A stretch of DNA of 64,000 bases from Picochlorum sp. 'celeri' (Eukaryota > Chlorophyta > Trebouxiophyceae), in the NCBI GenBank assembly GCA_010909725.1, contig JAACMV010000005.1:558001-622000 (forward strand). Reading direction: 5' to 3'. Below, piece by piece: positions 2,056-48,634 of this stretch (position 1 is the stretch's first letter; each line of letters begins with the position of its first letter). Below the pieces are notes generated by a model. That model searched no databases, was not told where the DNA came from, and saw only the letters and a list, made by a program, of their open reading frames with translations. Both the position numbers and the translations under genes were made by a program.

Positions 2056-4243
2056 AAAATCCCTCCACAGTAGTAGTGGAAGTTGTTGTCTTCATCTCCT
2101 TTTCTGGTAGCTTTGGTGTCTCACCAGGAATATACGGAGGCTTTGAGTTGGCTAATAAAGACCAATCTATGTCATGGAACCATGGATGTCGTTTGACATC
2201 TTCTGCTCCTGCTTCATGGCCCAATCGATCCTCTGGATCTTTTCTGAGCAATGACTTGAGCAAATCCTTGCATTCATCAGACATGGGTGGCTCCAGGGTG
2301 GGAAACTGCAGTTTTTTTTTCAGGATATTGTCAAATGTTGCATCTCGTCGTGGTCCTCTGAAGGGCGAGATGCCAAAGGAGAGTTCGTAAATGAGGATGC
2401 CAAAGGACCACCAGTCTACCATGTAGTCATGACCCTGTCCTGTGATGATTTCTGGAGCCAAGTATTCTTCCGTGCCGACAAAAGAGTTTGCTCTTCCCTT
2501 TGGTTTTATTTTAATGATGTAATCTTCTCGCTCAGGCGATAGACCATTCTCAATGTCAGTCGCCGAGCGTGGCACGTGTATCTTTTCTACGCTAGGAATA
2601 GTCTCTCCTTGGCACCATGACAGATCAAAGTCTGTCAGTTTAATATGCCCTGATTCGTGGATGAGAATGTTCTCTGGTTTCAAATCTCGATACATGAATC
2701 CATTGAGGTGCAAGTACTGGAGAGCCATTAACACTTCTGCGGCATAAAACTTGACCCAGGCTTCTGGAAGGCGCTTTCCAGGCATCCGATTCATCAAGCC
2801 ATACAGCTCACCCCCTGAACAGTATTCCAGGATAAAGTGCAAATGTGTGTCGGTTTTTAATTTCGCATAGCATGTTGATAGGAAAGGATGATCAATCGTT
2901 TCAAGAATTTTCTGTTCGGTTCTGACGCGACCAACCTTGTTTCGATCAATCATTTCTTGCTTTTCCAAAGACTTCATGGCAAATTGATGGCCATCCATGG
3001 CCACCAAGTCCACCATACCAACATCCCCGGTCCCGAGCTGCTTTCGTCGTCTAAAGTCAGAGAGTTTGATTTTTCCTTTATCGTGCTGCAATTTTTGAAT
3101 AGAGACGCCTCCAGAGTCTTGTCTTCTGTGAGGCTTGAGTGGCAAGACGGTATTTGTAAAGGATGCCCAAGGGTCCAGACCAACCCAATCAACTCTCTTC
3201 AACGCGTTGCCAACATCATGTGCAGCCTTCATTCCTAACGGTGCAGCTTTTTCTACCGTAGATTCTTCCGTGACGTCCACTTGAACGCCGACCAGAAACC
3301 TGGGCGCACCAGAGACATCTCGAATGGGGGCTACAGTGAGCATATTCCAAAATGGAGTGCCATCCTTTTTGTAATTCAACAGTCTCACCGTGATCTCCCT
3401 CTGTTCTTTTATGGCTTTTTTAAGAGTATCAACTGTTGATCTATCAGTATGCTTGCCCTGCAAGAAGCGGCAATTCCGCCCCAACACTTCTTCCCTACGA
3501 TATCCACATAATTCAATGAACGAATCAGACGCAAACACAATTGGGCAATCCGGCAGCGTTGGATCCGCAATGACAAAATTCGATTGAATTCTCTCTACAG
3601 TCGTCGCAAGATCCAATGCATAACGAGGCATCCCCCGACCAGGAGACCCAGCTCCAGATTGCCTTGATAGGCGCTTTGGCGTCTTGCCCTCACCCGCCTG
3701 TACTGCATGCAACACGTCATCAACAATCGGCTTTGCCACATTCTCCTTCAATCTATCATCATAATTAATCAACACAGGAACTCCTGATGCATCATGAATC
3801 GCATGACCTTCCGTTGTCGACGTCACATCCACCTGCACCCCCACAAACTTGACAACCCGACCAGTCTCATCGCGAATCGGCGTGATTGTCAGCAAATTCC
3901 AAAACGGCGTCCCATCTTTTTTATAATTCAACAATCTAGTACACAACGATTTGCCCGTCTTCACAGCTTCTCTAATCTGATCCACAGACTTTGGATCTGT
4001 ACCTTCTCCTTGTAAAAATCTGCAATTATGCCCAAGAATCTCCTCTGAGGAATAGCCAGTCATCTGCATAAACCCTTCGCTTGCATACACGAGCGGGCAG
4101 TCGGGCAGCGTAGCATCAGCAACTACAAATGTATGACGTAAAGCAGCCAATGCAGTTGTTAATTTCGCCTGGGGCAATGGCACCTGCGCAGTCGTCACCG
4201 TGCTTGGCTCTTTCTGCCCAGCAACGTCTCCCTCCGTCACCAT
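2054..4243 (-). CDS. PHOT: Phototropin: LOV1-LOV2-Ser/Thr kinase blue-light receptor
   Basis: Phototropins sense blue light through FMN-cysteinyl adducts and autophosphorylate; in green algae they act in mating, eyespot and photoprotective gene control. Numbering is from the ATG at 4243 (729 aa). LOV1 lies around residues 25-145 with the adduct Cys in NCRFLQG (Cys73). LOV2 lies around 210-325 with the same motif (Cys257). The AGC-VIII kinase follows, with LGTGDVG (402-408), Lys423 in [12 protein letters not shown] (517-524) and the phototropin-typical DFD (537-539) in place of DFG, then GTEEYLAPE. The same frame stays open back to a GTG at 4270, just downstream of a possible splice acceptor (catactag), so an upstream exon cannot be excluded. 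Apart from that the coding region is one exon. Length is close to the algal phototropins I remember. Confidence 0.95.
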
Positions 4244-4389
4244 CCTTGCTTTGTTTTCATCCGACGACACCTAGTATGTGTCTCCCATATATCAAAATGA
4301 AAAATGTTCTACCCTCACCATGAGGCACGAAGATAAAACTATCCCGGAGTGTCGAGAATTTTTACAAGCGCAGTCTTATCTGCTCCACC

Positions 4390-31450: not shown

Positions 31451-32743
31451 TCAATGGCGCTCATTGTCAAAGCCTGGGCATTCAAAGGGCACCTCGGGAC
31501 AAGTTTGTTGGATTCCATCTGGAAACAGCACACGCTCCATATCCGCAGTCTCAACCGACGCATGAATGCCATTGTACATTGAACTGTACTCCTCAAACAC
31601 ATATTTCATGTACGCATCCACCGATTGCCTCGTCACAGTGTTACACACAAATTCTCTCGCAGCAACAATCATTTGATAGGATTGTTTGGGATGTTTCCTG
31701 GCCCATTCCACAGCAGCAGCCACATCTGTCACATGGACGGGCAGATAATGCACATATGGCTGGAGCGACGGATAGAAAAATTCATAGAACGGGCTCTCTT
31801 GTTTCAGAACAAGACTGTGTCCTTGAAGCTGAGACAATATCCTGGAGCTTGGTGGGCCATTGCCATCCACGATAATGACAAACTTGTGCTCTTCCACATC
31901 AGCTTGTGACACCCTGGCAGCCTCCATCCCCAACCGTTCTCTCATCTCGGGGATATTCTCTGCTCCCTGAATGTATGAAACGAATTTAGCATCGCAAATG
32001 TCCTCGTGCTCCTTGCAGTAGAGGACAAGCTTGGGTCTCGGATACTCCTCCCAAGTGGATGTTGTCCATTCACTGCCTGTTGTGCTTCCTCTCCAGAACG
32101 CAATGTTCTTCTTCTCACGCTTCCAAGTCTCAAAATCAGGCAAGGGTCTTTTGCATCCTGCTCTGTCCAAGCTGCGGAAGGAGTGCTGATATGGAACCAA
32201 AATGTCCAGGTCTGTGACACTCTTTGTCCATGAGAAACTTGGGAAATCTTTTGATAGCGATTTGTCGCCAGTGGTGTACACCCAATCCATGTCTCCTTGT
32301 ATAGATTCCTTGCACATTGCGTGCACAAATTGGCACAAGGCATTGTTCATATCGTTCCCACTCCGCAAAGAATGTCTTGTCTTGTAGAGCTTTGTACCTT
32401 CTTTTCTGAGGTGATAGCCAAACCGTAGGGACTCAATGGCCTCCTCCAGCGCCTCTTTTGATGGCTGGTGATGTTCTTTCAGATACCTGAACGTCCTCTC
32501 TGCATCTCGCTTCCACTCTGTCGGGAAATCATGGCACACTTGGCCTCCACCACCAAAGGCAGCAGCAGTCTTACCATGGTCCACGGGAACAGATGTATTG
32601 GGCGTTCGTATCTCGCTCTTTTCAATCTCAATCTCGTATCTTTTGCAGTCCCAAAAGGCGTACATGAAAAGCCATGGGGCCAGGACTGCTATTAGCAGAA
32701 CTGAATACAGGGGAATACCACCCCCAAATTTTGCCCACCTCAT
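31451..32743 (-). CDS. CAP10-family glycosyltransferase, copy 1
   Basis: A 430-aa protein, probably type II membrane-bound in the Golgi/ER. A short N-terminus precedes a signal anchor (IPLYSVLLIAVLAPWLFMYAF). The CAP10/POGLUT domain shows IAFWRGSTTG, KFVSYIQGAENIPEMRERLG, FVIIVDGNGPPSSRIL, VLKQESPFYEFFYPSLQPYVHYLPV and a C-terminal segment with paired Cys. Family members transfer glucose or xylose to proteins or capsule polysaccharide. The acceptor here is unknown. It forms a tandem pair with the gene at 33208; similarity covers the coding region but stops at its ends. Confidence 0.85.
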   Translation of the reverse strand: MRWAKFGGGIPLYSVLLIAVLAPWLFMYAFWDCKRYEIEIEKSEIRTPNTSVPVDHGKTAAAFGGGGQVCHDFPTEWKRDAERTFRYLKEHHQPSKEALEEAIESLRFGYHLRKEGTKLYKTRHSLRSGNDMNNALCQFVHAMCKESIQGDMDWVYTTGDKSLSKDFPSFSWTKSVTDLDILVPYQHSFRSLDRAGCKRPLPDFETWKREKKNIAFWRGSTTGSEWTTSTWEEYPRPKLVLYCKEHEDICDAKFVSYIQGAENIPEMRERLGMEAARVSQADVEEHKFVIIVDGNGPPSSRILSQLQGHSLVLKQESPFYEFFYPSLQPYVHYLPVHVTDVAAAVEWARKHPKQSYQMIVAAREFVCNTVTRQSVDAYMKYVFEEYSSMYNGIHASVETADMERVLFPDGIQQTCPEVPFECPGFDNERH

Positions 32744-33207: not shown

Positions 33208-34503
33208 TCAATCTTGCTCATTGTCAAAGCCTGGGCATTCAAAGGGCACCTCTGGACAAGTTTGCCATATACCACCTGGAAACAGCACACGCTCCATATC
33301 TGCAGTCTCAACCGACGCATGAATGCCGTTATACATTGAACTATACTCCTCAAACACATATTTCATGTACGCATTCACCGATTGCCTCGTCACAGTGTTA
33401 CACACAAACTCTCTCGCAGCAACAATCATTTGATAGGATTGTTTGGGATGTTTCCTGGCCCATTCCACAGCAGCAGCCACATCTGTCACATGGACGGGCA
33501 GATAATGCACATATGGCTGGAGCGACGGATAGAAAAATTCATAGAACGGACTCTCTTGTTTAAGGACAAGACTGTGTCCTTGAAGCTGAGATAAAATTCG
33601 GGTGCTTGGCGGGCCATTGCCATCCACAACAATCACAAACCTGTGCTCTTCAACATCAACTTGTGACACCCTGGCAGCCTCCATCCCTAGTCGTTCTCTC
33701 ATCTCGGGGATATTCTCTGCTCCTTGAATGTATGAAACGAATTTAGCATCGCAAATGTCCTCGTGCTCCTTGCAGTAGAGAACAAGCTTGGGTCTTGGAT
33801 ACTCCTCCCAAGTGGATGTTGTCCATTCACTGCCTGTTGTGCTTCCTCTCCAGAACGCAATGTTCTTCTTCTCACGCTTCCAAGTCTTAAAATCAGGCAA
33901 GGGTCTGTCGCAACCTGCTCTGTCCATGCTGCGGAAGGAATGGTGATATGGAACCAAAATGTCCAAGTCTGTAATACTCTTTGTCCATGAGAAACTTGGG
34001 AAATCTTTTGATACTGGTCCATCGCCAAAATTGAATATCCAATCCATGTCTCCCTCTATCGAATTGCTACACATCAAGTACACAAACTGGCACAGGACTC
34101 TGTTGAAATCTTCACCATCACGCAGAGAATGTATCTTCTTGTAGAGCTTTGACCCCTCTTTTCGAAGGTGATAACCGAAATCCAGGGACTCAATGGCCTC
34201 CTCCAGCGCCTCTTTTGATGGCGTGTGATGTTCTTTCAGATACCTGAACGTCCTCTCTGCATCTCGCTTCCACTCTGTCGGGAAATCATGGCACACTTGG
34301 CCTCCACCACCAAAGGCAGCAGCAGTCTTACCATGGTCCACGGGAACAGATGTATTGGGCGTTCGTATCTCGCTCTTTTCAATCTTAAATTCGTATCGTT
34401 TGCAGTCCCAAAAGGCGTACATGAAAAGCCATGGTGCCAGGACTGCTATCAGCAGAACTGAATACAGGGGAATACCACCCCCAAATTTTGCCAACCCAGT
34501 CAA
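33208..34503 (-). CDS. CAP10-family glycosyltransferase, copy 2 (start codon unclear)
   Basis: The paralogue of the 31451-32743 gene has the same length, signal anchor and CAP10 motifs. The open frame begins with TTG (34503) just after an in-frame TGA, and no ATG precedes the membrane anchor. The first in-frame Met is inside the anchor (FMYAF). So translation starts at a non-ATG codon, or an upstream exon is spliced in, or the copy is 5'-damaged. Most of the protein is nearly identical to copy 1, but residues about 110-210 differ strongly (for example GDMDWIFNFGDGPVS against GDMDWVYTTGDKSLS). It lies head to head with OTU1. Confidence 0.75.
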   Translation of the reverse strand: MTGLAKFGGGIPLYSVLLIAVLAPWLFMYAFWDCKRYEFKIEKSEIRTPNTSVPVDHGKTAAAFGGGGQVCHDFPTEWKRDAERTFRYLKEHHTPSKEALEEAIESLDFGYHLRKEGSKLYKKIHSLRDGEDFNRVLCQFVYLMCSNSIEGDMDWIFNFGDGPVSKDFPSFSWTKSITDLDILVPYHHSFRSMDRAGCDRPLPDFKTWKREKKNIAFWRGSTTGSEWTTSTWEEYPRPKLVLYCKEHEDICDAKFVSYIQGAENIPEMRERLGMEAARVSQVDVEEHRFVIVVDGNGPPSTRILSQLQGHSLVLKQESPFYEFFYPSLQPYVHYLPVHVTDVAAAVEWARKHPKQSYQMIVAAREFVCNTVTRQSVNAYMKYVFEEYSSMYNGIHASVETADMERVLFPGGIWQTCPEVPFECPGFDNEQD

Positions 34504-37105: not shown

Positions 37106-38275
37106 TCATCTTTCCCACACTCTCTTTCCAACGGCAGCTGGAACAATGGCCCTATCTGACGGAACACGACCTCCATTGTCGCCTCGAGATCCATACATGT
37201 CACCATCACGTCTCCTAGTCCTTTTCCTCTTACCCACCCTTCTGTAGCTGTCATACTCCTCATCACTCATCGATCCCATCACACTCGACTCCATCGATTG
37301 CTTGAGGCGAGTTGCCGCATCCTCAATGCCAAATTTCTTTGCCAAGTCATCGAACCATCCATACTGCTTTTGTGCCAATGCTTCAGCAGCAGCAGCTCTG
37401 GCAGCAGCCTGTGCTCTACTGTACCGAGCAGCACGCTCCTTGGCTTTACGCTTCTCCTCTCTATCCTTTAGGAATTTTGCCGTGGCCGACCAAACATCCT
37501 TCGCGCCCCCACCCTGTCCAGCCATCATCACGCCAACATCGACCCGTTCCACAACATTCTGAGTGACATACTCCAACGCAGGCAAGTCTTCCTTTTCCAC
37601 CCAATGAATACAGCTCACTGGACACGCGTCCATAGCAGCTTGGATATCATCCTCCGTATCCAACCACTGCCCAAACACCCGTGACCGTCCATAGTCATCC
37701 TCCATCCGAAATGTAGCTGGGGCACACCACACGCACTGTTTGCACCCAATACATGTACACTCATCCACAAATACACCTCGACTCTCATTTGGATCTTCAT
37801 TCTTCCCCATCCGAGTATTCGCCATCCATTTAGACAGTGTCTGCCCTGTGTACCCATCAGTTTCATCCTCCAGAGCCTCATCCAACACTCTGTTGTATTC
37901 ACTTCGCTGTTCTGGGTCCGAAAGGACTGTATAGGCTTCATTCAACAAGATGCACATATTATGGCCCTCTTCATCCCCACTAATATCAGGATGACAGACT
38001 TTTGCAATTGTCCTATACGCAGACTTGATCTCTACTTCTGTAGCATCATCATCCACTCCTAGTACAGCGTAATAATCAACAACACCATTTTCTAATACGA
38101 AAATTTCATCCTGATTCAGTCCTGAAGCAGCACGGCACGTGCTGCTGATCCCTCGAGAACCAGCGAATGCCCTTCTGAATACAACAGACTGAATACTACT
38201 ACGACTGACAGGCAGTGTGTTTGTACCAGTACAGATGACATGTGTTGCTCTGGTGCAACACAAGGGCATCCGCAT
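37106..38275 (-). CDS. J-domain/bacterial-type ferredoxin protein (plastid, DJC76/77/82-like)
   Basis: The protein is 389 aa from the ATG at 38275, the first ATG in a frame open to a TTG at 38296. An Arg/Ser/Thr-rich transit-like region (1-55) precedes a J domain (about 67-135) with HPD at 95-97. A ferredoxin domain follows: CTCIGCKQC, a further Cys, and ACPVSCIHW. An Ala/Lys/Glu-rich helix comes next, then a basic Arg-rich C-terminus. The J domain would stimulate Hsp70 ATPase, and the iron-sulfur domain may couple this to plastid redox state. Plants carry DJC76, DJC77 and DJC82 with the same pairing. Confidence 0.9.
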   Translation of the reverse strand: MRMPLCCTRATHVICTGTNTLPVSRSSIQSVVFRRAFAGSRGISSTCRAASGLNQDEIFVLENGVVDYYAVLGVDDDATEVEIKSAYRTIAKVCHPDISGDEEGHNMCILLNEAYTVLSDPEQRSEYNRVLDEALEDETDGYTGQTLSKWMANTRMGKNEDPNESRGVFVDECTCIGCKQCVWCAPATFRMEDDYGRSRVFGQWLDTEDDIQAAMDACPVSCIHWVEKEDLPALEYVTQNVVERVDVGVMMAGQGGGAKDVWSATAKFLKDREEKRKAKERAARYSRAQAAARAAAAEALAQKQYGWFDDLAKKFGIEDAATRLKQSMESSVMGSMSDEEYDSYRRVGKRKRTRRRDGDMYGSRGDNGGRVPSDRAIVPAAVGKRVWER

Positions 38276-38572
38276 TGCGTTCAAGGGTTGAGCCAATTAT
38301 CCCAGAGGATGACCAAGAACAGGGGCGAATCTTTTGCAATCTCGTATAGTTGATGTCGAAAGAACAGCAGACTCACATATATTTACATATACGAGAGTCT
38401 AAAGTGAATATAACATTTCATTATGGTGAGACAAGTGTCCTTCGAGTCACGATATCAAACCTGATCACGATCACGTCGGTCGAACGCGCGTTCCGAACGC
38501 GTGGCCACGCGCCATGGCATGCATGCCACGTTTGATGAGTGATGAGACTATGCCACAATGCAACGGCAGTCA

Positions 38573-39257: not shown

Positions 39258-40621
39258 TGCTTTTCTTCTATGAGCAAATAGATCTATTGTAAAAGATATA
39301 TTCTTACGTTTACGAAATCAGATCGCCGATACAATTGGATGTACTGGTACTTGGAGGACGACAACCCCAGATCCGCGCCCGAATCGAAGGCGATGTGCGT
39401 GCACATCCATCATGTGGAGGCAGCTTCCAGCAGTGGCAATGCATCGTTATGCGACCCACATCTGGGCACTACATTTGGATAGATCATTGCATGGGTACAA
39501 TTTTACAGTTTCTAACGAAAGGTGACTGAAAATTTGTGCCGGACAAATCATGCATTGACATGGCATATCTGGCAGCTGGTGCATGGAGCATTCGTCTCCA
39601 GCACAATCTGACGTGATGGTGGCACCCTAGGAAAAAGTACATCAACAAGTTGAAGCGTCAACGTCTGTTTTCATATCTGATGCACCACAATGATACGCTC
39701 TCAATTTCTTGGTTGGAACAAGAGCAGCCAAGGAAAGCAAGCCATTTCCCAAAGGCCCACCTGCTTCATTCCTTTCTGTGCATGACTGACCAAGGAGCTG
39801 GCACAGATATACAAGTCATGGCCTGCTTCGGCGACAGCTGCAGTACATTCAGCCTGGAGTTTTTCTCTTTCAAGTAACCTTTCAAAAGTAACACGCTCCG
39901 CGCCATGACACCCTATAACATTGGTCTCATAGAAGCATCCATGCAGCACACAGATGAAGTCTACTCTCCCAATTCCGTATTATGTTTTTCACCCGTATAA
40001 AAGCCAGGTCTTCCACTCTGAGCGACAAGCAGCGCTGCCCATAGACTCTGTCCTGGGATTCTCTCCCCAATGCCGCGCGGAATGCAACAACTGCTTCGGT
40101 ACCGTATTGACTATGCGTCTCTACAGTGTGTCCTCCCTGCAGTGAGCTCAAGCCCCTGCCCCCCTCTGTGCTCGCATCCACTTGAACCGATGGATCCACA
40201 TACAGATACTCTGGTAATTATAGAATTTAATGTGGCGAGGATGGGTGGGTAAGTCGCCTCACCTCTCGCAATCGCGATATGCGCTTGCACCCGCCAACCC
40301 TCTGGCGATCGCGCACCAAAGCATCTCTTTGGTGACCACCTGTATCAAGCAAACAAAATTTACGATCAAATGGCTATATATATTCGTCTATCTGTGCAGA
40401 TGCAGGTATGGACGAAGTGGTTCGAGTCAGGTATATGGCCCTTGAGGGCGCTAAGATTTCAGTGGCCGGGGAAATGTGCACGTGACCGAGATAACTAGAA
40501 TCGCAATCGCGATTCTGGTCGCGGGCGCTGTTATAATATTCCACGATTCTCGTACGAATCGAGTCATATTTTTTATTACTTCTATATTTGTCATTCAACT
40601 ATTATTTTGGTTATATTCACA
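39258..40621. other. Gene-poor stretch of 1.36 kb
   Basis: Short frames of 60-90 codons occur on both strands. The two best, on the minus strand at 39701-39949 and 39927-40199, contain helical protein-like runs such as ERLLEREKLQAEC, but no start, splice pair or family could be supported. It may hold a degraded gene and the promoter of the 40622 gene. Confidence 0.35.
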
Positions 40622-43481
40622 ATGCCTGTATTTGATGGTAGATCCTTCCAGGGTAGAGTTGCAGCAACGCCTGGAGTAGGGTTTCGTGGAGACGTCGTAC
40701 TTGGTGGTTTCGGAGGCGGTTTCTCTGCTATGAGGACTCATCAAGCAGCATCAAGGCATATTTATCGTAGTATATCACATAATGTGTATAATAAAACCGT
40801 GCATCGTCATATGCGCACCTGTGCAGCGCGTGCCGTGCCCGGAAAATCGGAGGCGGTCAGTTGTACCGGAACAATCTCCTCTGGTTGGGCAAGCATGCAG
40901 CCGACATTTTCACGAGGGCTTGGCGGTCGCCCCGGGGCAGCGTATATGTCTATACACCGTGCGTGCATTTGTCGTGCTCAGTATACCGCTGTGTTCTCAG
41001 AGGAGCCGTCGGAGGACGGTGACGAAGCTTCCTCAATGGATGTGTCACTTGTGGAGGAGGACATTCTTCCTGCTCATCACACAATGCCAGTGTTCCACGT
41101 TGTCGGCACGTCCAAGTACGCGTCACGACTCCGTCAAACCATTCAAAGTATTTCAGAAAACTATCCTGAGTCCCCAATACTGATTCAAGGAGAGTATGGC
41201 TGTTTGAAGGACGAGATCTCAGAGTTGATTCACAACAACAGTGGGCGGCATATTTTCGAAGTGAATGATTGTGCACTGTACGTATCTTGAAGAGACGCTC
41301 CCCTAGAGGGGCGCTTAGTGATTTTGAAATTCTCCTGGTATTGTATGGCATTATGTTTGGGTTTATTTATGCATTGTGGCACGTACTTATGAAATGCAGC
41401 ATGTGTCCCGGAGAGTTGCTTCAAAGAGTGAAAGGTTCTAATTACTGCAAAGATCTACACACCATGCTCATCAGAAATGTGCATCGACATCCAAAGGAAG
41501 TAAAGGAGTTTTTGGAGTTCTACCAGAAGCACGAGACCTTGCGGGACACCATGAAGATCATTATGACAACCGATGTGGAGATTGGTGGCATTGATCACGT
41601 CCAGGTGGTTAAGATTGTTCCATTACGAGTCAGAATCGAAGATGTCAGGTCCTTAGCTATGTATTTTCTGGATAAAATATCCGTGGAGCGTGGCATTGGG
41701 CTGCTGAGAATATCTCCGAGCGCTGTGCGTCGGTTGGAAACGTTTTTGTATGCTGAGAATGACAAGGATTTGGAGAACATGCTGAATCGGGCAGTCACAA
41801 AGCACCTGCAAGAGCAGGGTTCCCCAGCATTCCTTGAGCCAGGGACTACCGCTTTGATTCTGGATAAAGATGATTTGCAAGGATATCATGAGGTATGTTT
41901 GTGATTGCTTTTCCGTTGCGGTTCGGAGAAAGCCGAGAGACGGTCTTTTATTGGTATTGGTATTTGTAGGATGAACATTTATTCAGCCTATCCGAGAGGT
42001 TCCCAAGATTGAAACCGTTTTTGATGTCACCCTGGTGGCCAAAAATGTTCAATGAGAATTTCACAGTGTACGCGTTCGCAGCAACAGTGGTGTATTTGTT
42101 GGTTGGACCACAAACAAGGGACGAAAATCCAATGCTTGCAATCTTTTGGGACACGTGGTGGCCGGTGTCCTTCATGCTGTTCCCTTTCGTGGGAAGAATT
42201 TGGTGCTCCGTCTGTCCTTTCCAGACATATGGAGAGCTTGTGCAGAAGACGAAGCTTAAATTCGGCGGAAAGGTCGCCAAGTGGCCTCGGGCTTTTCTGG
42301 AGAAGTGGGGGTACAAGTTCATGCTGGCGTCGTTTGTTGCCATCCTCGTGTGGGAGCAAGTGTGGAACTTACCAAACAATGGCACTCTATCAGCGTACTT
42401 GTTGTTGCTCATCACGTCTGGAGCGGTTGTCGGGCAATTCTTTTACGAAAAACGAGTGTTTTGTAGATATCTGTGCCCCATTGGTGGCATGAATGGCCTG
42501 TTCACCCAGCTCTCCATGACCCGAATGAAAGCGACGCAAGGCATCTGCTCGGCAGAGTGCAGTACATACTCGTGCTTGAAGGGCAGGAGCGATGTACCTG
42601 AAGGGGTGGGCGTGTCTACGGGGTGTCCCATGCAAACGCATCCGGCTCAGGCAGTTGACAATCGCATGTGTGTTCTGTGCATGGAATGCATAAAAGGCTG
42701 CCCCAACGATTCAGTACAAGTCGTGCTACAGATTCCAGGTAAAAATATCTGGGATGGCATCAACCAGCCAATCCCAGAAGAATTGGCTATGGGTTTTGTC
42801 CTGCTAGGTGCCATGGGCTTGCATTGCTTGCCGACCCTGTTGGGCGACTTGGGCTTGTCAGAGTATCAGAGCTGGATCTGCGACTCATCATTGATGTATG
42901 TGTTAGTATCTGTCATTGTCATTGCGGCGCCCGGGGTGCTGGCATACTCGTTTGATGCTTTGTGGCGCATTCTTGCTGCAAAAATGCACGATGGTACATG
43001 CATCAGTCCACAGTCCTTGTCCCTGGGCGACAGTCTTGAGAATAGTTTGGACAGCGATTTTTCGCAGGATTCCTTCGATATTTTTGTTTCTGCTGCCAAT
43101 AGCAAGTACCAGTTGGACTCCAAGAGCATAGTTGTTGCCCCGCAAACCCCCTTTGTAAGACTTGGGTATGGCTATGTGCCTCTGATGTGGAGTAGCGTAT
43201 TGGCGTATTACATCAGACCGCTGATGGAGGAAGGAGGTCATATACCGAGTATTTTAGGAAGCGTCCTGGGACTTGGGGGTGCCCAGGACTGGGTCCTATG
43301 GAACTTCTCCTTGCCTGAGATCCACCTGATTCAATCAATTTTGGTACAAGTTGGCATCGTTTCGTCATTGATCTTGTCGAGAAAGGTATCAGATCAGCCA
43401 TGGAAAGTCATAATTCCTCAATGTTTGTGTATAATTGGTATTGGGGCAGAGTTAAACCATCTGTTTCTGTCTCAGTTCTGA
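40622..43481 (+). CDS. Degenerate sigma-54-activator-like AAA+ region fused to NapH-type membrane 4Fe-4S module
   Basis: Exons 40622-41277, 41400-41892 and 41970-43481 are in phase (introns 122 and 77 nt), giving 886 aa. The first 135 or so residues are Arg/Ser/Gly-rich and may be an organelle presequence. Next comes a region resembling bacterial enhancer-binding AAA+ domains: ILIQGEYGCLKDEISELIH (Walker A, 190-196, Lys kept but GK replaced by LK), FEVNDCA, MKIIMTTD, KIVPLRVRIEDVRSLAMYFL and a terminal helix block. Walker B and the GAFTGA loop are missing. From about 400 on are transmembrane helices and iron-sulfur motifs of the NapH/NosR/YccM type: CSVCP (462-466), CRYLCPIGG (from 548) and CVLCMECIKGCP (from 617). 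I infer a membrane electron-transfer protein with a sensory or regulatory front end that no longer hydrolyses ATP. Cyanobacterial origin is possible but not shown. Confidence 0.8.
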
Positions 43482-44292: not shown

Positions 44293-46429
44293 ATGATGCG
44301 CTCTGCAGTTGTCTTCTTCTTTTTGGCATGTGTGATTCATAGCACTATCGGTATGTTGTTGTGTGCGATGGCCTGATCCAGCTAGATGGGTTTCTTAACC
44401 AAGTGCTGGAACATCCAGTTTTGGAAATGTGCTTGATCACATTTCTGCCCCACATTTTGCTTAACGAGACCCACATGCTCTAGTCAAATACATGCACTAA
44501 TATCATTATCATTATGATGTAGCTGCCTCTCCTGAGGTCATGTCGGTGGTGTCCTTCGCTAGGAGCAATGCCGTGGAGTCGATATCTCTTGCTCAGGATC
44601 TCCTCAAAGCCCTTGAATCTGGAGACAAGAATGCTTCTATCGTGGCATATACGGCACTTCGTCCCAACTATGAAGAGATTGAACATTTATATGAGGTTTT
44701 TGGTGATACAGATTCTGATATCGACGCCCGACCATATGCCTACCCGTATGGAGAAGCTTTTAGTGCCCAGCTTACTGAGATCCCAGGAGCCGTCTTCAAA
44801 GGCTCTCACAAGATCGAAGCTATGTTGTTCAGAGAGGACGATTTACCAGGAGCTGTTTCATGGACTGAACAATTGATCAAAGACTATGAGACACTGATTG
44901 AAAAATTGGATGATCCATCCGACTATACTCCGGAGGCCATTATGCATGGTGTGGCAGAGCTTGCCTACGAGGTCGCCAAGAAGAAATTCTCCAGTGAAGA
45001 GGAGACGTATTCAGATTTATCGATTCTCATCTTTTACCACAATTTGGCAGGTATAAAGAACATCATGGAGCCATGGGTTGAGGCCCTCGAGGGATCAAAT
45101 CCTGATAGTGCTCAGGGCTTGATCAAATCCATTGACGCAGCCAATGCGACCCTTGCACCATATGTCCTCAGGGATGGCGACGGAAATGTGGTTGGATATG
45201 AGCCATATTCTGCGGTCAATGTCACTACAAGAAGAGAGATTCAAAAGTCATTCTATGATGTGGGCCTTGCTGTTGAGGATGCTGCAGATTCTTTGGGTAT
45301 TGAATTGGTAGATCCTTCAGAGTCTGGAGAGGCTGGGGAAGGCGAGGCAGAGAGCTCCGACGAATGCACTCCATACGTAGAAACGGCTTCATTCTCAAAC
45401 GAGAGTCCTCAGATTCAAAATGGCCTGGCATACTTCAGTGCCTTGATGCCATACGCTGTTCAGGAGTCAGAAAACTTTGTGGAGGTTCTCAAGAGCGGAG
45501 ACGTCGATGCAGCGAAATCTGCCTATTTGTCCACCAGACCAATTTATGAACAGGTTGAAGTGCTAGCTCCGAGCTTCATCGATATTGATGAGGCTTTGGA
45601 CGCCCGCGAGTATATATACTTCAGAGGGGAATTGGATGATTCCTTTAGGGGTTTCCATAGGGTAGAGAGGCTGCTTTTCGGAGAGAATGTGATTTCGAAT
45701 GACACTATATCTCTTGCCGAAGATATTGTTGATAACTTGAAGGACCTCCAGGGTCGCCTAGAGACTCCCTCCGAAGATTTTAATTCTGCCAATGCATGGG
45801 ACGGAATAGCAGGTCTTGCATCTGAGGTGCCATCGAAGAAGATTTCAAGTGAGGAGGAGACATTCTCCGACTTGTCCCTCATGATCTTTTATAATAATTG
45901 GAAAGGAATATGGAGCCAAATTTATCCATTTTGCGACGATGCACCAAAAGAATGTGAGGAGGTTGCAAAGGCAATACAGGACGCTAGAGACTGCCTTGGT
46001 ATTAATACCAATGATGATATTACGGCAGTCTCTGCTGCAAATGTCACCGAAGACAGCATTTCAAACTTATTGAACGCTGACTACAAATCCTATGCAAATG
46101 CCACCATGGACACAAGGAAATGTATCATTGACAAAGGGTATGCAGTGAGAGACGCTGTAGTCTCTATGGGAAATGCCCTCAATGTGTTTGACGATTGCTC
46201 TGACTTTTATGAACTCAAGTTCATCAATTACCCAGAGAGGACTACCAAGCTTGATGTGAGTGAATATGATGGAGACTCAGCGGAAGCTGAGTCAGAAGCA
46301 GGAGAAGCCGGTGAGGCTGGTGAAGCAGGAGGAATTTATCAAGAGGATGAAACCTCCTCCTCCAGAGGCTTTTTGGTGAATCTTTCGCTTACTATTTTAG
46401 CCACGGTAGTGGGAGCTGTCTTCATTTAG
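44293..46429 (+). CDS. Secreted, probably GPI-anchored protein with two EfeO/M75-like domains (two exons)
   Basis: Exons 44293-44350 and 44523-46429 (172-nt intron, phase 1) give 654 aa. The signal peptide is MMRSAVVFFFLACVIHSTIA. Two tandem domains resemble the imelysin/EfeO (M75) fold. Each has a YEEIE/YEQVE helix, a DIDAR or ALDAR site, the metal-binding HxxE motif (GSHKIEAMLF, His115/Glu118; GFHRVERLLF, His398/Glu401), and a KKxSSEEETxSDLS block with YHN/YNN. The C-terminus is Ser-rich then hydrophobic (FLVNLSLTILATVVGAVFI) with nothing after it, fitting a GPI signal. Bacterial EfeO binds iron for the EfeUOB uptake system, so surface iron binding is inferred, helped by the ferric reductase gene 350 bp downstream. 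An acidic linker joins the domains, and a Glu/Gly/Ala repeat precedes the anchor. Confidence 0.82.
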
Positions 46430-46780: not shown

Positions 46781-48634
46781 ATGGAAGACGATTACCTTGA
46801 AAAAGCCATTGAGGAAGTGCTAGATGCATGCTGCGTGTTCAACAATGTTCTTAGGGAAGGTATCAAACAGAAGATTCTTTATGATGTTGATAATTTGAAG
46901 ACGCCGAATGCTTCCCAGGTCGCTGACTCAGACTTGATATGGAGCACACTTGACATGGAGGCAGATTTGCAAATAGAAAATCAGCCCAGACAGAAATCCA
47001 TTGATGGCGCATCAATTTCGAAACGAATGAAGCTATACATGGTCAGGAATAGTTTGATTGTGTTCATGCTCTGCGCCTTGTTCTGTATTACTGTCGCTGC
47101 AGCCTTCGTTTTAAGTTTTCCAAGATCCCAGAGAGGAGTGTGGAAGGAAAAGGGACGACTTGCCCTTCTTTCAGTTGCTGTTGCAGGGGCGTCATTAGCT
47201 GTAGCATCGCTTGTGTTCTGTTTACTCTCAGCAAATGGATTATTGAGATATCTCTTCTATAAGAAGTTATCCCATTATTTCCACCTTCCAATCACAATGT
47301 CAAGTCTTCATCGTGTGTTTGGGATTATTGTCCTGCTAGGTTCAATAGTTCATTCCATAGCATGGTTTCCACTGTATTGGAGTATTTCAAGTTCTGAAGG
47401 ATGGGTAAATGGAGATTCAAAGTACAGGTACATTGGTAACCTAGGAGGAAGATCTAGAAGTATGACGGGGCTTTGTACATCATATGTGTCAATTACTGGA
47501 TATGCCATGCTTGGCATACTTTTGCTGGGATCTTTCATCGCTTCAGGGGCGCATAAAAGACTAATTAAAAATGAAACACGGATAGGAAAGTATATCAGGT
47601 CGTTTGAGGCTTTCAAGTTGAGCCATTGGATCATGGCTGCGACATTTTGTGTTCTTCTGTTTTTTCACCCTCTACCCACTCTGCCGTCATGGGACGCCAC
47701 TCAGGGTTTTGGCTCAATAACTTGGATTTTCATCAGTATTCCAATTTTACTACTTCTATTATCTGTTGGGATTAGATGGTATCGGAGAAGCAAAAGTGTT
47801 AGCAGCATCATTTTGTGTCATACTTTGCCAAATGATGCCCTTTCCCTGACGGTCTGGGCACCTGGAAAAAGAAGATGGCAGCCAGGAACGTATGCTCATG
47901 TATTAGTACCATCAATTTCAAAATACCAATGGCATCCTTTCTCGATTACTTCCTTTTCCAAAAATAATTTGACCTTGTATATCAAGGCAGTTGGAGACTG
48001 GACAAACGAGCTACATCATCAGGCCTGCCAAGGCAATCTTGTTTCGACAAGGTGTTACGTGGATGGCCCGTACATGACAAGCACATGCGAATACAAAAAC
48101 TACAGCCATATTGTTATGGTGGCTGGTGGAATAGGGGTGACACCATTTGTGTCGGTCATTGCAGAGATGATGGAGCATAGTCATCAATGTAGGTCATTGA
48201 CTCTCCATTGGGTGGTGAGAGACATTGAAGCAGCCAGGACCTGGTTCAAGACCCTTTTCGAATCTATGGAAGATCTGAGACAATCCTCCGAGAATTGCAG
48301 CATTCGAGTTAACATATGGCTCACTGGTATAAAGCCTGAGCTTGTAGAGCTTGCAAAAAGAGTTGGGTCTGTTCATGCTGATGTCTGTGGACTGGATATA
48401 CTCTCTGGAATCAGGATAAAGAGCTCAAATACTATGTCACATTTTGGACGACCAGATTTTGGTCAACTTCTCAGAGATTACGATCCAGGTGCATCTCTTG
48501 CCGAGAGCCCTGTGGGTGTCTTTTGTTGCGGACCGACCGCTATGGTTGCAAGTCTACGCCATGCTTGCAACACATTCTCGGCAATTAGTGGGAAACACTT
48601 TGCATTTCATGCTGAAGATTTCCATTCTTATTGA
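46781..48634 (+). CDS. Ferric reductase/NADPH-oxidase-type flavocytochrome b
   Basis: A 617-aa single exon. FRE/NOX proteins move electrons from cytosolic NADPH through FAD and two hemes across a membrane, to Fe(III)/Cu(II) or O2. About six helices are seen between 90 and 340. Heme-ligand histidines occur as His177/His191 (LHRVFGIIVLLGSIVHS) and His282/His296 (SHWIMAATFCVLLFFHP), the bis-heme spacing of the family. HPFSITSF is the FAD site, AGGIGVTPFVSVIAEMM the nucleotide site, and FCCGPTAMVASL the C-terminal NADPH motif. There is no EF-hand region at the N-terminus. Next to the EfeO-like protein, ferric reduction for iron uptake is more likely than superoxide production. Confidence 0.88.
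   Translation: MEDDYLEKAIEEVLDACCVFNNVLREGIKQKILYDVDNLKTPNASQVADSDLIWSTLDMEADLQIENQPRQKSIDGASISKRMKLYMVRNSLIVFMLCALFCITVAAAFVLSFPRSQRGVWKEKGRLALLSVAVAGASLAVASLVFCLLSANGLLRYLFYKKLSHYFHLPITMSSLHRVFGIIVLLGSIVHSIAWFPLYWSISSSEGWVNGDSKYRYIGNLGGRSRSMTGLCTSYVSITGYAMLGILLLGSFIASGAHKRLIKNETRIGKYIRSFEAFKLSHWIMAATFCVLLFFHPLPTLPSWDATQGFGSITWIFISIPILLLLLSVGIRWYRRSKSVSSIILCHTLPNDALSLTVWAPGKRRWQPGTYAHVLVPSISKYQWHPFSITSFSKNNLTLYIKAVGDWTNELHHQACQGNLVSTRCYVDGPYMTSTCEYKNYSHIVMVAGGIGVTPFVSVIAEMMEHSHQCRSLTLHWVVRDIEAARTWFKTLFESMEDLRQSSENCSIRVNIWLTGIKPELVELAKRVGSVHADVCGLDILSGIRIKSSNTMSHFGRPDFGQLLRDYDPGASLAESPVGVFCCGPTAMVASLRHACNTFSAISGKHFAFHAEDFHSY

Follow-up and report, generated by a model that had tools for sequence, protein, structure and literature searches.

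Why should a green alga encode a protein that runs from the fold of a bacterial transcriptional activator straight into a membrane iron-sulfur module? The question is raised by a gene at positions 40,622 to 43,481 of a 64,000-nucleotide stretch of the Picochlorum sp. 'celeri' genome (the window; contig JAACMV010000005.1, positions 558,001 to 622,000), in which an initial annotation had seen the remnant of a sigma-54-activator-like AAA+ domain fused to a NapH/NosR-like module. In the reading that we prefer, on which our judgement is evenly balanced, the gene codes for a nuclear-encoded plastid-membrane electron-transfer protein of cyanobacterial descent, whose AAA-like part serves as a non-hydrolysing regulatory or docking platform.

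The fusion itself is real. The host assembly comprises 27.4 Mb in 30 contigs, and the window lies on contig C5. The window gene has a near-identical counterpart on C20; C3 and C23 carry a further pair of copies. Because the copies come in pairs (C5/C20 and C3/C23), the assembly looks like a phased diploid, and a passage of PMC11092101, which puts the GC content of Picochlorum SENEW3 at 46.3%, refers to a P. celeri genome that is phased and diploid. The C20 allele has the same exons as the window copy, from which it differs by no non-synonymous and one synonymous change; a 26-base insertion/deletion separates the two alleles at 40274, upstream of the gene. The C3/C23 paralogue encodes the AAA and NapH parts in a single uninterrupted frame devoid of introns (909/905 aa) and shares 50% identity with the window copy across exon 3 and 40% across 786 aligned residues. 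Among 7995 scored candidates, 127 were relatives at E≤0.001, the best of which (6.9e-186) matched the whole of residues 150-886, and relatives of the window protein align end to end over this range. One of them, P0001, is 98% identical to the C3/C23 paralogue; of the 120 relatives listed in the first protein search, Elliptochloris bilobata alone is a named eukaryote, a kinship that marks the host as a green alga. Given the one-frame paralogue and the fused cyanobacterial relatives, it is very unlikely that the AAA and NapH parts are separate genes, and the joining of the two noticed in the initial annotation is confirmed.

The introns of the window copy were selected from GT..AG pairs enumerated by a script around the two gaps, the final pair being picked by eye. 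Six open three-exon joins resulted, with an identical intron 2 and a variable intron 1, and the chosen one (40622-41277 / 41400-41892 / 41970-43481, forward strand, as are all features of the gene) yields a protein of 886 aa. Exon 1 (40622..41277) encodes an Arg/Ser/Ala/Gly-rich N-terminal extension and the first half of the AAA+ core, including an altered Walker A motif, GEYGCLKD (residues 190-197; 41189..41212). With 15 Lys and Arg against 3 Asp and Glu in residues 1-125, the extension may be transit-peptide-like. Intron 1 (41278..41399; GTACGT...TGCAG), one of the six frame-keeping options, is followed by exon 2 (41400..41892), which completes the AAA+ core and adds the lid. This exon is devoid of the GAFTGA loop, has the Walker B acidic pair replaced by Arg-Asn, and contains the VPLRVRIEDV block (41617..41646) at the start of the lid. 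After intron 2 (41893..41969; GTATGT...TTGTAG), exon 3 (41970..43481) encodes the NapH/NosR-like multi-helix module, a ferredoxin-like Fe-S stretch and C-terminal helices. Two cysteine pairs belong to the membrane module, CSVCP (CX2CP; C462 and C465; 42204..42218) and CRYLCP (CX3CP; C548 and C552; 42462..42479). They precede a third set spaced CX3CX4CX16CP (C576, C580, C585 and C602; 42546..42626) and a fourth, CX2CX2CX3CP, with the usual 4Fe-4S spacing (C617, C620, C623 and C627; 42669..42704).

Profile searches with the window protein returned Sigma54_activ_2 over the family cut-off (6.7e-7, residues 161-260), AAA_lid_14 just under it (4.9e-6, residues 295-356, about 41626-41811; 26.7 bits for a cut-off of 27) and Fer4_5 over the cut-off in two stretches (2e-10). 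GAFTGA was not found in the spliced protein, and no DNA-binding (helix-turn-helix, HTH) domain was among the 12 Pfam families matched at E≤10, a search in which HMMER filters lose most very weak matches; membrane helices occupy the HTH position. The motifs first noted from the letters, namely the altered Walker A, the VPLRxRxEDV block and the missing Walker B and GAFTGA, all hold in the 886-aa protein.

That the AAA part folds like the AAA+ domains of enhancer-binding proteins, as had been proposed, was borne out by structure comparison on P0001, the near-copy standing in for the paralogue, whose AAA part gave VpsR as its top Foldseek match. The motifs tell of a long-standing change. GAFTGA occurs in none of 344 collected relatives (some of them fragments), 321 of which retain a recognisable P-loop, and a loose GAFTGA pattern gave four matches among the 344, every one outside the AAA part. 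Aligned to PspF, the cyanobacterial P0007 has the GAFTGA loop deleted, NN at the Walker B DE, TSE in place of ATN and a shortened arginine-finger region (motif roles as generally understood). The altered P-loop is kept as GExG[LV]xKD across 38 tabulated cyanobacterial rows, and green and prasinophyte-like rows show variants akin to it; the labels cyanobacterial, green, prasinophyte-like and ochrophyte-like were assigned by kinship where rows are unnamed. In the same 38 rows the Walker B pair is NN (35 rows), NK (1) or DN or DQ (2), and never acidic; no diatom row has an acidic pair either, one of them reading Glu-Gly. With GAFTGA lost and both the P-loop and Walker B altered, it is very unlikely, on sequence grounds, that the window AAA part is a sigma-54 activator. 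To that extent the proposal of an AAA part that does not activate transcription held; the activator function was not lost in a eukaryote, however, as the cyanobacterial relatives are already without GAFTGA. The term remnant is misleading, the altered P-loop being itself conserved in the 38 cyanobacterial rows and eroding in the window copy. A role of the AAA part as a sensor or scaffold is plausible.

PF04552, the sigma-54 DNA-binding domain, has no match in the window's own genome, as expected for a eukaryotic host without a sigma-54 system, and none in the eight named genomes searched. In a sample of 291 Cyanobacteriota genomes, 137 of which carry PsaA/B, it was above the cut-off in 2 and reached E≤0.001 in 9. 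One of the two above the cut-off, G130, which bears both PsaA/B and a family member, contains a partial 62-bit PF04552 match (C1:411956-412339, reverse strand) that is unusual for the phylum. A passage of PMC3162934 reports that none of the 29 cyanobacteria studied there has sigma-54 or its activators, and treats GAFTGA-less relatives as non-activators.

At a threshold of E≤1e-30, the family profile matched 74 of the 291 genomes and 72 of the 137 with PsaA/B, the latter count including shorter proteins that lack the N-terminal part, as well as a few fragments; both matches outside PsaA/B genomes were AAA-only. In a 78-row tree of the redox core, 31 algal rows nest inside the cyanobacteria in one group (100/98) that also includes the long-branched, presumed cyanobacterial P0109. 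Constraining the 31 rows to one clade was not rejected (p-AU 0.26), and ten diatom and three other ochrophyte-like rows group together at 100/99. This nesting bears out the suggested origin of the gene from a bacterium or the plastid ancestor. Assembly of the domain pair within a eukaryote was not borne out, as cyanobacterial relatives carry the same fusion without GAFTGA. The family is ancient, its members being cyanobacterial redox proteins carried into algae, and both the joining of the two domains and the disappearance of sigma-54 function predate the eukaryote.

Eight cysteine columns hold Cys in at least 76 of the 77 other rows and four further columns do so in 71-73 of the 72-75 rows reaching there; the window copy keeps all 12 of these family-conserved cysteines. 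The window copy shares with P0001 55% of residues over the NapH core, 34% over the lid and 29% over the AAA core; the corresponding identities between P0001 and P0097 are 61%, 43% and 40%. Near-invariant columns are changed at 11 of 84 positions in the window copy and at 1 of 84 in P0001 (itself one of the defining rows), and the end branch of the window copy measures 1.27 versus 0.28 for P0001. Together, the identities, changed columns and end branch indicate that the redox half is constrained while the AAA half is relaxing in the window copy. The structure model of exon 3 reached a pLDDT of 89.0 and a pTM of 0.88.

The additional domains differ between lineages. Most cyanobacterial relatives seen have an N-terminal cyclic nucleotide (cNMP)-binding domain, some members of about 715-750 aa being without it. 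PF00027, the domain in question, is found in P0097 and not listed for P0001 or the window protein, and no domain of this type was found in the green rows scanned. All five long diatom-type proteins scanned (P0125, P0138, P0143, P0154 and the unnamed P0133) contain EF-hands; in P0138 and P0143, the two read to the end, these follow the Fe-S/helix part and precede the last helices. Sigma54_activ_2 was under the cut-off in three of the five and not listed in two, and the diatom P-loop is GxxGSGKx. A fixed redox core with an exchangeable input is our main reason for reading the family as one of regulated electron transfer.

On this preferred reading, the protein would most likely reside in the plastid membrane, where its C-terminal NapH/NosR-like module probably serves in quinol-linked electron transfer. 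If it works as NapH does, the quinone pool would supply electrons to the membrane module with its Cys motifs, and the soluble Fe-S stretch would pass them on to a stromal acceptor. Helix order in the models would place the AAA part, both cysteine pairs and the soluble Fe-S stretch on the same side, the stroma if the protein is plastidic. The N-terminal enhancer-binding-type AAA+ fold would act as a pseudo-ATPase that docks or gates the redox part, with a gate input that may have changed by lineage, from a cNMP-binding-type domain in most cyanobacterial relatives to EF-hands in diatoms. The window copy would be a fast-evolving second copy that retains its redox part while its AAA part erodes. 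We also consider possible, if doubtful, a broader scheme in which a redox-switch family of oxygenic phototrophs uses a non-hydrolysing AAA part of the enhancer-binding type to report on or gate a polyferredoxin linked to the quinone pool. On this scheme the family would have persisted from cyanobacteria into algae in the absence of sigma-54, its sensor having been swapped (nucleotide in cyanobacteria, calcium in diatoms) and a duplicate recruited to iron acquisition in this alga.

The iron lead comes from the two downstream neighbours, an imelysin gene (Peptidase_M75, two domains; 44540..46429, forward strand) and a ferric reductase gene (FAD_binding_8 and NAD_binding_6; 46781..48634, forward strand). 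A search of the whole genome found imelysin and NAD_binding_6 only at the window locus and its allele; genes split by introns could escape it. The abstract of PMC3143127 describes imelysins as likely to be involved in iron uptake. As the window copy adjoins iron-acquisition genes, it may take part in iron-limited redox or in iron reduction, a link that comes from one locus, was noticed after the fact and is a hint. Inspection by eye suggests that the imelysin gene may have a short signal-peptide exon upstream, near 44293, and a hydrophobic tail.

Several observations weigh against the preferred reading. Nine deep, presumed cyanobacterial rows (P0106-P0108, P0110, P0112-P0114, P0116 and P0117) all have a canonical G[STA]GK[ST] P-loop, and seven of them have Asp at the first Walker B position. 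Such deep-branch members may therefore bind or hydrolyse nucleotide, and not every family member need be a pseudo-ATPase. Asp also stands at the second Walker B position in seven of nine prasinophyte-like rows, one of which, P0103, reads Asp-Asp. Long branches meet in the 78-row tree (the window copy, the diatoms, P0103 and P0109), and that of the window copy could reflect decay. The cysteine sets follow the NapH pattern in part, the soluble ones comprising one standard set and the CX3CX4CX16CP set; the exon-3 NapH-like module found no PDB counterpart in the structure search; and the argument for a plastid transit peptide is one of composition. As for genomic context, no neighbour is common to more than 12 of 80 cyanobacterial loci of the family, imelysin occurs in 12 of 72 family-bearing versus 6 of 65 family-lacking PsaA/B genomes (P = 0.22), and FTR1 sits on another contig pair. 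Imelysin and ferric reductase work at the surface of the cell, so the adjacency to them may stem from co-regulation or be fortuitous; alternatively, the protein may lie outside the plastid.

Three other explanations were weighed. The protein could be a membrane-tethered regulator of gene expression, its AAA-like part acting on transcription and its NapH part serving as a redox sensor. Many cyanobacterial members are named sigma 54-interacting transcriptional regulators by their sources, and the cNMP-binding domain of P0097 fits signalling. VpsR, which heads the Foldseek list for the AAA part of P0001, is like TyrR a GAFTGA-less relative discussed as a non-sigma-54 protein in a passage of PMC3162934. 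Some GAFTGA-less relatives of this kind do act on transcription in bacteria. However, membrane helices stand where an HTH domain would be expected, no DNA-binding domain being among the 12 Pfam families matched, and the redox part is better conserved than the AAA half. Moreover, according to a passage of PMC5928378, the role first suggested for RdhC, a protein with the same membrane module, was regulatory, and the case made later is for an electron carrier. We consider such a regulator unlikely.

The iron locus bears on another explanation, a factor for iron or copper reduction or metal delivery at the plastid membrane, operating on CcoG-like principles, with the acceptor held by the AAA-like part. 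The genome searches found no imelysin or ferric-reductase locus other than those adjoining the window gene and its allele, and CcoG belongs to the same broad polyferredoxin class. Nevertheless, the family shows no iron association in cyanobacteria, FTR1 lies elsewhere, and cysteines were the only metal-binding motif looked for; we consider this explanation rather unlikely. Finally, the long end branch (1.27 versus 0.28), the 29% identity of the AAA core to P0001 and the 11 of 84 changed near-invariant columns (1 of 84 in P0001, a defining row) would suit a decaying paralogue that does nothing itself and leaves the work to the intronless C3/C23 copy. Against such decay, the frame is open, the introns are GT-AG, 12 of 12 cysteines remain and the NapH core keeps 55% identity. 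The alleles differ by no non-synonymous and one synonymous change, too few to measure selection. We find decay without function quite improbable.

Elsewhere in the window, a DnaJ domain is fused with a single-cluster 4Fe-4S ferredoxin domain (37106-38296, reverse strand), two PAS domains are joined to a protein kinase domain in a phototropin-like arrangement (2057-4270, reverse strand), two glycosyltransferase family 90 genes are adjacent (31451-32743 and 33208-34503, reverse strand), and an open reading frame at 14217-15122 matches the KDZ transposase domain.

Among the open-licence full-text matches listed, no paper is about the pair of AAA-like and NapH domains and none assigns it a role. 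Yet the protein is common to cyanobacteria, green algae and diatoms and combines a dozen conserved cysteines with a lineage-specific sensor, and many of its cyanobacterial members go under the name of sigma-54 regulators although the phylum is nearly without sigma-54. If the protein does tap the plastoquinone pool, photosynthetic electron flow would gain a further, regulated branch. The diatom EF-hand and iron-locus versions offer directly testable inputs, and of all points the eroding, iron-linked second copy and the EF-hand version most deserve a test.

The closest known proteins are the cyanobacterial Fer4_5 relatives of about 840 aa, recorded as 'sigma 54-interacting transcriptional regulator' or 'cyclic nucleotide-binding domain-containing protein'. 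The window protein shares with them a collinear AAA core, lid and NapH module throughout (full-length rows align over 96-98% of residues 150-886 at about 33-36% identity), a P-loop of the same altered class and the lack of GAFTGA. Unlike most of them, which have an N-terminal cNMP-binding domain, it has a transit-like extension, an eroded AAA core and introns. The diatom Fer4_5 and EF-hand proteins have a homologous AAA-like and NapH chain and differ from it in their EF-hands and GxxGSGKx P-loop. Enhancer-binding proteins such as NtrC, NtrX, PspF and FleQ resemble it in the fold of the AAA+ core and lid; unlike them, it has no GAFTGA, no GxxxxGK[ST] or DE and no HTH that we could find, carries a membrane module instead, and belongs to a genome in which no sigma-54 domain was found. 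As in NapH and NosR, a multi-helix Fer4_5 module with cysteine pairs is followed by a 4Fe-4S motif. NapH and NosR have two C-terminal 4Fe-4S motifs of the CX2CX2CX3C type, and both of their pairs are CX3CP, whereas the first pair of the window protein is CX2CP and the second CX3CP. The NCBIfam napH profile matched the window protein at 7.3e-11, but with 42.1 bits for a cut-off of 213, and the window copy differs further from NapH and NosR in its extra C-terminal helices and its N-terminal AAA domain.
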